A stretch of DNA of 16,995 bases from contig JAATVL010000132.1 of NCBI GenBank assembly GCA_014523525.1, forward strand, positions 1 through 16,995. The letters are read 5' to 3'. Shown one piece after another: positions 11,125 to 13,470 of the stretch (the stretch's first letter is position 1; each line of letters starts with the position of its first letter). Under the pieces are notes generated by a model that did not search any database, was not told the origin of the DNA, and saw nothing but the letters and a program-made list of their open reading frames with translations. Source of the stretch: Nitrososphaerales archaeon TH703 (GTDB taxonomy: Archaea > Thermoproteota > Nitrososphaeria > Nitrososphaerales > Nitrososphaeraceae). A program made the translations under genes and the position numbers.

Positions 11125-11682
11125 ATGATTTCAAAATTTGATTCAAATATATTGACAGACAGAGTTGAGTTCAAGTTATATGGTGCCCAAATACACTTGA
11201 ATAACCTACAAGAAATCCAGTTAAATTACTCAAACATGGAAAAGGACAACCCAGTAGTTCAGGCGGAATTGGAAATAGATTGCTTTCTTGCTCAAATTTT
11301 GGGAGCAGTGGATTGCCTGTTGATACTAATCAACACAAGATTAGAATTGGGAATTGCGATAGGAAACGTCGACCAAGCTACAATTCAGAGCGCCCTCAAT
11401 GCCAGAACTAAAAATATTAGCCTGTTAACAGAGCTAAGTCAAGCCTCAGAACACAACGGATGGCTTTGGATATTAAAGGAATTTAGAAATCAAACGATGC
11501 AAAGACCGTCCAAAGAAGCGCAAGCCCTTCTATTCGATGACAGGACAACATCGATAAGATCAAAAGATCCGAAGGAACTGATCAACAAGAATTTAATATC
11601 ATATCTTCAGCAAAGTCTTAATCGTGTTAGCGAGTTGGTTAATACTGTCAGAATGAAAGAGCCTCTCCTAAGTAGATATTGA
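11125..11682 (+). CDS. Hypothetical all-helical protein
   Basis: The 185-aa product appears wholly alpha-helical, with an amphipathic hydrophobic stretch at about residues 48-77 (ELEIDCFLAQILGAVDCLLILINTRLELG) that is interrupted by charges and is therefore more likely a buried helix than a membrane segment. EFRNQTMQRP near 119-128 resembles the RNxxxHR-type segment of HEPN-like helical proteins, but the key histidine is a glutamine here, so I do not assign that family. The start is an ATG with only a weak upstream A+T element. The stop lies just before the tRNA-Gln gene, and the tRNA's probable TATA box overlaps the end of this gene. Confidence 0.55.
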   Translation: MISKFDSNILTDRVEFKLYGAQIHLNNLQEIQLNYSNMEKDNPVVQAELEIDCFLAQILGAVDCLLILINTRLELGIAIGNVDQATIQSALNARTKNISLLTELSQASEHNGWLWILKEFRNQTMQRPSKEAQALLFDDRTTSIRSKDPKELINKNLISYLQQSLNRVSELVNTVRMKEPLLSRY

Positions 11683-11689: not shown

Positions 11690-11733
11690 CCGTTTGAAAG
11701 TTTCTACTTGTAGCTCGAGAATTAGCCCGGTCG

Positions 11734-11760
11734 AATCTACACGATTGTGTCGATGCCGAA
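11734..11760 (+). other. tRNA-Gln intron 1 (27 nt, position 10/11, non-canonical)
   Basis: Removal joins G10 to U11 and creates a paired D stem. The bulge-helix-bulge is clear: CGGU (11728-11731) pairs with GCCG (11755-11758), with 3-nt bulges CG|A and AA|U holding the splice sites. The intron closes on itself as AUC/GAU plus ACAC/GUGU around a GAUU loop. There is no convincing outer helix, as in relaxed motifs. Confidence 0.75.
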
Positions 11761-11772
11761 TCTAGCGGTCAA

Positions 11773-11790
11773 ACTCCACAGGAGGGCTAT
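11773..11790 (+). other. tRNA-Gln intron 2 (18 nt, position 21/22, non-canonical)
   Basis: The intron contains a tight hairpin CUCC-ACA-GGAG. The central helix is GGUC (11767-11770, exon) with GGCU (11785-11788), two Watson-Crick and two G-U pairs. Bulges AA|A and AU|G carry the splice sites. Excision joins the D loop to the 3' strand of the D stem. Confidence 0.78.
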
Positions 11791-11806
11791 GGATTTCAGG
11801 CTCTGG

Positions 11807-11822
11807 ATCGTCATGAAAAGAT
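11807..11822 (+). other. tRNA-Gln intron 3 (16 nt, canonical position 37/38)
   Basis: The intron begins after G37 of the CUCUGG half-loop and ends before A38. The central helix CUCU (32-35) with AAAG has three of four pairs, bulges are GG|A and AU|A, and the intron closes as UC-GUCAU-GA. Removal restores a perfect 5-bp anticodon stem. Confidence 0.8.
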
Positions 11823-11868
11823 ACCTGAGGACAGCAGTTCGAATCTGCTCCGGGCTACGATTTTAAAT

Positions 11869-13470
11869 CTAAATTTGAGGCCCAAATTTTCCCAAGTATC
11901 TAGCCTCTTCTCCGAACCTCTTGAAATTTTCGATAAACAAATGTGCTAATCTTTTCGCTGCAACAACGTATTGGTCCTTATTAGACCAAGAAGAACTTGG
12001 ATCTAAAATTTTTGATGGGATTTGAGGACATGACTGCGGAATTTCTAAGTTGAAGATATTATCATGTTTGTAATGTACCCTTTCAAGATCTCCATTTATT
12101 GATGCCGATACCATCGCTCTTGTATATATTAGATTTACTCTCCTGCCTATTCCATATGGACCGCCAGTCCAACCAGTATTAATAAGATATACACTTGTGT
12201 TATGTTTTGAAATTTTATCTGCAAGCATTCTTGCATAATCAATAGGATGTAATGGCATAAATGGCGCTCCGAAACATTGAGAAAATGTTTCCTTCGGTTC
12301 CGTAATTCCTCTTTCTGTACCTGCTAACTTACTTGTATATCCAGATATAAAATGATACATTGCACCTTCCCTCGAGAGTTTCGCTACTGGGGGCATTACA
12401 CCAAATGCATCCGCAGTAAGAAATATCATAACCTTAGGATGAGTAGCGATTGAAGGTATTACTGCTCCAGGGATAAATTCTAAAGGGTAGGCCACTCTAG
12501 TGTTCTCTGTTAGGAAGCTGTCGTCAAAAATTGGTTCTCGTGTTTGTTCATCAACAATTACGTTCTCCATTACAGAACCAAACTTTATTGCATTCCAAAT
12601 TTGCGGTTCGTCCTCCTTCCTAAGATTAATACACTTGGCGTAACATCCACCTTCGAAATTAAAAATTCCTCTATCAGACCATCCATGTTCATCATCTCCT
12701 ATTAAGTTCCTTTCTGGGTCCGCGGATAATGTAGTTTTTCCTGTCCCTGATAATCCGAAAAATAATGCGGTTTCTCCATTCTTTCCCATATTGGCAGAAC
12801 AATGCATCGGGAATACTCCCCTCTGTGGAAGTAGAAAATTCATGACAGAGAACATTGACTTTTTTATCTCCCCCGCATAGGATGTGTAACCTATTAAAAT
12901 CATTTTCTTGGAGAAATTAATGATTATGAATGTTCCGCTTTTGGTACCGTCAATCTCAGGGAGAGCGGCAAAATCATTAACAAAGAACAGAGTAAATTCA
13001 GGTTTATGATTATTGAGTTCTTCAGGTGTCGGCCGTATAAATATTTGTGATGCAAAAATGTTGTGCCATGCACTGTCGGTAAAAACCCTAATTGGCAGGC
13101 GATTGTCAGGGTCAGCGCCAACAAATCCGTCAAATATAAAAAAGTCCTTCCCAGATACGTGCTGTTTCATTCTTTCAAAAATTTTGTCAAACTTTTCTGT
13201 AGATATGGGATGGTTCACTTTACCCCAGTCGACGAGGCTATGCGTTATTTCGTCATCAACTATGAATTTATCGTCGGGAGAGCGTCCTGTAAATTTACCG
13301 GTCTTAACAGACAACGCGCCAGAATTTGATAACAGTCCTTCATTTCTCTGAATTGCTATTTCGATCAGGGTTGCTATTGGTAGGTTTCTCTCAATTTTTC
13401 CAAAATTGATATTCATCTTCTCAAGTTGTAAAAGATAGCTCTTAGTATGACCATCTTCCTCCTCATTCAT
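11869..13470 (-). CDS. pckA: Phosphoenolpyruvate carboxykinase (ATP)
   Basis: This enzyme interconverts oxaloacetate + ATP and phosphoenolpyruvate + ADP + CO2, an entry to gluconeogenesis in the cytoplasm. The 533-aa length is typical of the ATP-dependent family. Visible motifs: TGRSPDDKF (about 61-69) for oxaloacetate binding, YAGEIKKS (198-205) with metal-ligand lysine, PMHCSAN (221-227) with metal-ligand histidine, the kinase P-loop GLSGTGKTTLS (239-249), DDEHGW (259-264), and the C-terminal GWTGGPYGIGRR nucleotide-binding segment. The GTP-type signature is absent. The start ATG at 13470 has TATA-like TATTTAATTTA (13497-13507, reverse) about 32 nt upstream. The gene ends 12 bp from tRNA-Gln, tail to tail. 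In an autotrophic ammonia oxidiser the expected role is sugar synthesis from C4 acids (inference). Confidence 0.96.
   Translation of the reverse strand: MNEEEDGHTKSYLLQLEKMNINFGKIERNLPIATLIEIAIQRNEGLLSNSGALSVKTGKFTGRSPDDKFIVDDEITHSLVDWGKVNHPISTEKFDKIFERMKQHVSGKDFFIFDGFVGADPDNRLPIRVFTDSAWHNIFASQIFIRPTPEELNNHKPEFTLFFVNDFAALPEIDGTKSGTFIIINFSKKMILIGYTSYAGEIKKSMFSVMNFLLPQRGVFPMHCSANMGKNGETALFFGLSGTGKTTLSADPERNLIGDDEHGWSDRGIFNFEGGCYAKCINLRKEDEPQIWNAIKFGSVMENVIVDEQTREPIFDDSFLTENTRVAYPLEFIPGAVIPSIATHPKVMIFLTADAFGVMPPVAKLSREGAMYHFISGYTSKLAGTERGITEPKETFSQCFGAPFMPLHPIDYARMLADKISKHNTSVYLINTGWTGGPYGIGRRVNLIYTRAMVSASINGDLERVHYKHDNIFNLEIPQSCPQIPSKILDPSSSWSNKDQYVVAAKRLAHLFIENFKRFGEEARYLGKFGPQI

Follow-up and report, generated by a model that had tools for sequence, protein, structure and literature searches.

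Does a stretch of DNA in which tRNA finders see nothing encode a glutamine tRNA in four pieces? The question is raised by a 16,995-nt stretch from Nitrososphaerales archaeon TH703 (family Nitrososphaeraceae; contig JAATVL010000132.1), hereafter the window, which belongs to a MAG that is 88% complete. An initial annotation of the window proposed that 134 nt make no tRNA as they stand but yield tRNA-Gln(CUG) once three introns are removed, each of them marked by a bulge-helix-bulge (BHB) motif. In the raw window, ARAGORN found 0 genes, and the Rfam tRNA model had 0 matches at its gathering cut-off. When the Rfam search was extended genome-wide to an E value of 10, it returned 42 places, none of them on the window's contig.

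A tRNA-Gln(CUG) gene in four exons

The gene occupies positions 11724-11857 of the plus strand and consists of four exons (10, 12, 16, and 35 nt) and three introns. Exon 1 (11724-11733) holds tRNA nucleotides 1-10, which are the 5' strand of the acceptor stem, U8, C9, and G10. It is followed by intron 1 (11734-11760; 27 nt) at position 10/11 and by exon 2 (11761-11772), with nucleotides 11-21, or the 5' strand of the D stem and the D loop. Intron 2 (11773-11790; 18 nt) lies at position 21/22. Exon 3 (11791-11806; nucleotides 22-37) carries the 3' strand of the D stem, the 5' strand of the anticodon stem, and the anticodon CUG. Intron 3 (11807-11822; 16 nt) is at the canonical position 37/38, and exon 4 (11823-11857; nucleotides 38-72) supplies the 3' strand of the anticodon stem, the variable loop, the T arm, and the 3' strand of the acceptor stem. 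The joined exons form a 73-nt tRNA-Gln body with an A1-U72 pair and the anticodon CUG. On re-reading, all of these coordinates, the three intron lengths, and the features of the product were as first annotated. The A at 11858 (plus strand) is, by sight and in the numbering of the initial annotation, the probable discriminator base A73, and CCA is not encoded.

The tRNA gene is flanked by an open reading frame (ORF) that ends at 11682 and by a convergent ORF with its stop codon at 11869. We take the latter (11869-13470, minus strand) to encode PEP carboxykinase. After six MAGs of the same genus, its best listed matches are bacterial (Moorella, 59%), and there were no further Nitrososphaeria titles among the 80 matches listed, a hint that the gene may have come from bacteria by transfer.

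Excision of the introns yields a recognizable tRNA

When all three introns were excised in silico, ARAGORN reported tRNA-Gln(ctg) with a complete cloverleaf, which bears out the claim that the raw 134 nt make no tRNA while the spliced sequence does. The same call was obtained if introns 1 and 2 were excised and ARAGORN's intron option was turned on. Excising intron 1 alone led to a Leu(cag) call, and excising introns 1 and 3 led to Pro(agg) calls. If the spliced body is folded on its own for plain minimum energy, the result is not the cloverleaf.

We also searched the locus with a BHB grammar (BHB bulges, a central helix with 3-4 of 4 pairs, an inner helix of at least 2 pairs, at least 6 pairs in total, and an intron of 13-45 nt). 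This kind of search had been suggested as a check in the initial annotation, and it recovered exactly the three-intron solution given there, as Gln(ctg). Might three BHB-like inserts be excisable from many sequences so as to leave a cloverleaf by chance? The locus does contain 35 candidate introns, which make 1004 variants with up to three excised, and 4 of the 12 variants that score as a tRNA are not glutamine (there were 8 Gln(ctg), 3 Pro(agg), and 1 Phe(gaa)). However, the same procedure gave no tRNA of any kind from 1000 dinucleotide shuffles of the locus (0 of 1000) or from 442 further stretches of 153 nt in the window, counting both strands (0 of 442), and the architecture and its helices are conserved in relatives, as described below. 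We therefore rejected a chance fold, which is vanishingly improbable.

The gene is conserved across the family

To find relatives, we took 25 bases of the 3' exon (11832-11856) as a probe and allowed up to 3 mismatches. The probe matches once in its own genome. Across the Nitrososphaeraceae, it matches 61 of 70 genomes (the window's own included), once each, in 11 of 12 genera. There was no match to the probe in the other 9 of the 70 genomes, of which six are under 90% complete and three (G012, G013, and G033) are 90-95% complete. Of the 61 loci, 60 can be parsed into exons and introns; the remaining one (L088) is split by a contig end. Introns 2 and 3 are each present in 60 of the 60 parsed loci and intron 1 in 50 of them. 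The 10 loci that lack intron 1 all belong to one genus, g7, whose other 5 loci have it. In these 10 loci the intron is missing exactly: exon 1 runs directly into exon 2, and the result is the predicted ligated sequence. Because of this exact absence, the 10/11 junction is proved with no argument from folding, just where the initial annotation had placed it. The 21/22 and 37/38 junctions, also placed there first, rest on conserved BHB geometry, and they fit the intronless tRNA-Gln genes of more distant relatives (L092-L095, with anticodon CUG, and L100 and L104, with anticodon UUG; by eye).

Could the introns be real but with boundaries slightly displaced, by a few bases? BHB motifs in other registers (for example 11737-11755 for intron 1 or 11774-11789 for intron 2) do exist, and such variants also yield tRNA-Gln(ctg) from ARAGORN. 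A displacement is very unlikely, given that the ten g7 loci without intron 1 read as the predicted ligation product, that the register we use for intron 2 has 4+4 pairs versus 3+3 for its neighbor, and that the intronless glutamine relatives fit the junctions used here (by eye).

Another reading is that the locus is a decayed tRNA-Gln pseudogene with insertions and that the true gene lies elsewhere. The raw sequence is unrecognized by ARAGORN and by Rfam, as a pseudogene might be, and the MAG is incomplete. Nevertheless, there is a single match in the genome, both the exons and the positions of the inserts are conserved over 60 parsed loci, and the helices are conserved as well, and on these grounds we rejected this reading as extremely unlikely. 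Nor did we see the combination that the initial annotation named as fatal to its proposal, a second intact tRNA-Gln(CUG) alongside a degenerate copy here: the probe has its single match in a MAG that is 88% complete, and a second copy could still lie in the unassembled part.

Splicing signals and predicted folding

All three introns have the 3-nt bulges that were first described at their splice sites. In each, the 5' bulge comprises the two exon bases before the cut and the first intron base, and the 3' bulge comprises the last two intron bases and the first exon base. Between the bulges is a 4-bp central helix, which in intron 3 is relaxed. For intron 1, CGGU (11728-11731) pairs with GCCG (11755-11758), and the inner helix starts from 11735/11754. 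For intron 2, GGUC (11767-11770) pairs with GGCU (11785-11788), and the inner helix is CUCC/GGAG. For intron 3, CUCU (11801-11804) faces AAAG (11817-11820) with a mismatch of C34 and A, and the inner helix has 3 pairs.

These helices are retained across the family. Every copy of introns 1 and 2 has a central helix with 4 of 4 pairs (50 of 50 and 60 of 60 copies, respectively). For intron 3 the central helix has 3 of 4 pairs in 60 of 60 copies, with C34 facing A in 59 and U in 1. When the introns were shuffled, 4 of 4 pairs arose in 2.1%, 2.5%, and 0.9% of cases (introns 1, 2, and 3, respectively) and at least 3 pairs in 15-18%. The mean length of the inner helices is 5.7, 2.8, and 3.2 bp, versus 0.58-0.65 bp in shuffled sequences. 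The counts are not independent because many of the loci come from close relatives. There are also changes that keep the pairing: in intron 1, CGGU is opposite GCCG (45 loci) or ACCG (5 loci), and in intron 2, GGCC, GGUC, or GGCU occurs with GGCU, GACU, or GGUU. A strict motif would have an outer helix in every intron, and by our reading intron 1 has no adjacent outer helix. This departure and the three central pairs of intron 3 had both been pointed out in the initial annotation.

We then considered how the unspliced RNA might fold. With standard parameters, BHB 2 is part of the minimum-energy fold of the window's RNA, while forcing BHB 1 or BHB 3 costs 4.5 or 6.1 kcal/mol. Among the 50 loci with three introns, the median costs are 5.65, 1.15, and 6.1 kcal/mol for introns 1, 2, and 3; BHB 1 and BHB 3 are free of cost in none of them, and BHB 2 is free in 16 of 50 (maximum cost 10.6 kcal/mol). 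These costs tell against our reading of the gene, as do the central-helix mismatch of intron 3 and the nine family genomes that the probe does not match. The central helix of intron 1 uses bases 5-7 of the acceptor stem and U8, and BHB 1 is costly because this helix competes with the acceptor stem. The folding models suggest that, before splicing, the window's RNA leaves BHB 2 available; since BHB 1 and BHB 3 compete with other pairing, the enzyme would have to trap them. It had been claimed that both D-arm introns must be removed before the D arm can fold. This needs qualification, as the D-stem pairs 11-24, 12-23, and 13-22, three out of four, already form in the predicted unspliced fold, where they flank the motif of intron 2.

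Splicing endonuclease homologues and a proposed model for processing

The initial annotation recommended identifying the splicing endonuclease subunits, and two homologues are present in the genome. Both proteins pass the cut-offs of the two Pfam endonuclease domains (PF01974 and PF02778) and that of the NCBIfam model for tRNA-intron lyase (TIGR00324). One of them (L122, 199 amino acids) aligns best to the solved endonuclease chains 2cv8_A and 3p1z_B and, by eye, keeps the Tyr, His, and Lys that we take to be the catalytic residues of the enzyme. The other (L123, 198 amino acids) has Arg at the position of the His in 1a79_A (by eye on the alignment).

We conclude that the locus is almost certainly a functional gene for tRNA-Gln(CUG), interrupted by three short BHB introns and seen in one copy, whose transcript would be spliced by an (alpha-beta)2 endonuclease. 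The conclusion draws on the gene's anatomy, the conserved exons, the BHB helices and their pair-keeping changes, the exact absence of intron 1 in some relatives, and the two endonuclease homologues. From these, we infer transcription, cleavage, ligation, and charging, as well as any order of splicing. In archaea, the splicing endonuclease cleaves a 3-nt bulge between the second and third bases, the exons are then ligated, and CCA is added. The gene would accordingly be transcribed as a pre-tRNA that carries the three short BHB introns, the two-subunit (alpha-beta)2 enzyme would cut every 3-nt bulge after the second base, a ligase would join the exons, and CCA would be added to the 73-nt body plus discriminator.

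In the parts of the papers available to us, Thaumarchaeota enzymes are described as the alpha2-beta2 type (PMC4090602, PMC3218864), which is tied to noncanonical and multiple introns (PMC4090602). The same kind of excerpt records relaxed motifs for (alpha-beta)2 enzymes (PMC4090602, PMC4033280).

An intron shared by both glutamine tRNAs

The genome's tRNA-Gln(UUG) gene (L205; G000:C140:380-680, locus 90-181) has a 19-nt insert at the same 10/11 position. A search with the 3' end of the UUG gene matched 64 of 70 family genomes, five of them twice. We read 31 UUG loci, namely one from each of 30 genomes of genera g3-g7 plus L205, leaving second copies out of the count. The 10/11 insert is present in 30 of the 31, and the other (L260) does not parse. 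By eye, CGGU can form four pairs in 29 of these 30 loci; in L247 it forms three. The 10/11 intron is therefore common to the two isoacceptors, which may have it by common ancestry or because it passed from one gene to the other. In six g7 genomes (G026-G030 and G032), the CUG gene lacks intron 1 and the UUG gene has the 10/11 insert.

We examined the history of intron 1 in g7 on two LeuRS trees. Tree (a) contains 15 g7 rows plus the window's genome and counts G033 and G040, whose state is unknown, as lacking intron 1; tree (b) drops these two and contains the 13 g7 rows of known state. Neither tree includes G028 and G036, two g7 genomes without intron 1 for which there was no full LeuRS match, and G037 had neither a known state nor such a match. 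Both trees need 3 changes in intron 1, but the well-supported branches force just 2 (tree a) or 1 (tree b). Nor is the state clearly clustered, with as few changes in 48 of 500 shuffles (tree a) and 103 of 500 (tree b). Because so few changes are forced and the clustering is weak, the pattern may reflect one loss, several losses, or a gain.

A speculative and unlikely idea is that the 10/11 intron is old, linked to glutamine, and kept by selection. Until it is excised, its central helix would hold acceptor-stem bases 5-7 and U8 and so block full closure of the acceptor stem, and it might thereby act as a checkpoint in the maturation of tRNA-Gln. Several CUG genes of one genus would have escaped by exact loss, with the UUG gene keeping the intron.

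Relatives outside the family and other tRNA genes of the genome

In a class-wide search, at least 259 of 400 genomes had a match, and we read by eye the 30 listed loci from outside the family. These comprise 4 intronless tRNA-Gln(CUG) genes (L092-L095, from another order of the class), 19 CUG genes with inserts, 6 tRNA-Gln(UUG) genes, and 1 gene that is cut off. Among the CUG genes with inserts, L112-L121, which are ten loci of a single large family in the same order, carry inserts close to the second and third positions and lack one at 10/11; in L111, an insert at 10/11 is present (by eye). The tRNA-Gln(CUG) genes of L099 (family f9) and L105-L111 (family f3) have D-arm inserts at positions that differ from the window's (by eye). 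D-arm introns may therefore have changed position or arisen repeatedly.

Other tRNA genes of the genome seem to carry introns too. We applied the BHB grammar to 25 of the 42 matches to the tRNA model: 3 need no intron, 11 are best solved with one intron and 2 with two introns, and 9 have no solution, though several of the best solutions disagree with those of neighbors. L210 (G000:C148:380-680, minus strand) resembles tRNA-Met(CAU) by eye, with inserts that the grammar does not resolve.

Discussion

General annotation can overlook a tRNA gene of which one copy is seen, as the empty results from ARAGORN and the Rfam model illustrate. The family also offers a natural series, with intron 1 present, exactly absent, or common to the isoacceptors, that lends itself to tests of intron loss and of splicing order, given a cultured member.

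The gene type is already known in archaea, and we did not find the exact arrangement described in the literature searched. That multi-intron pre-tRNAs are published, Thaumarchaeota included, agrees with the initial annotation, which could not confirm this particular tRNA-Gln(CUG). The three-intron tRNA-Gln(CUG) of Nitrososphaeraceae is unnamed in the titles and abstract openings on archaeal tRNA introns that we searched, a set that did not cover the early key papers and so gives weak grounds for calling the gene undescribed. The precise lack of intron 1 in part of one genus and the sharing of the 10/11 intron with tRNA-Gln(UUG) did not appear in the literature searched either, which is again weak evidence. 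Cultured relatives may already be so annotated in GtRNAdb.

One of the closest published frameworks is that of tRNAscan-SE 2.0. The portion of that paper available to us describes archaeal tRNA genes, those of Thaumarchaeota included, that have two or three introns; it also covers introns of the D arm and the removal of introns in steps, and it states that closely spaced introns need to be removed one after another (PMC8450103). A separate BHB model was trained for the noncanonical introns of Thaumarchaeota, of which 107 were counted, and within the same portion no tRNA-Gln(CUG) is named (PMC8450103).

Among individual genes, the excerpted report on Caldiarchaeum subterraneum (Aigarchaeota) includes a tRNA with a CUG anticodon as one of three multi-intron tRNAs (PMC3293823). 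It is printed there as tRNA-Glu[CUG], though CUG is a glutamine anticodon, and we liken it to the window's gene by its anticodon and multiple introns and not by the positions of the introns (PMC3293823). In the Thermoproteales, as far as the available passages go, there are likewise multi-intron pre-tRNAs with noncanonical BHB introns; a single gene can carry as many as three short ones, which lie at 37/38 and at other sites, the D arm among them (PMC8450103, PMC4033280, PMC12397907, PMC3218864). Pyrobaculum and Thermofilum are the extreme cases in those passages, whereas the window's gene belongs to the Nitrososphaeraceae and has its intron positions fixed family-wide.
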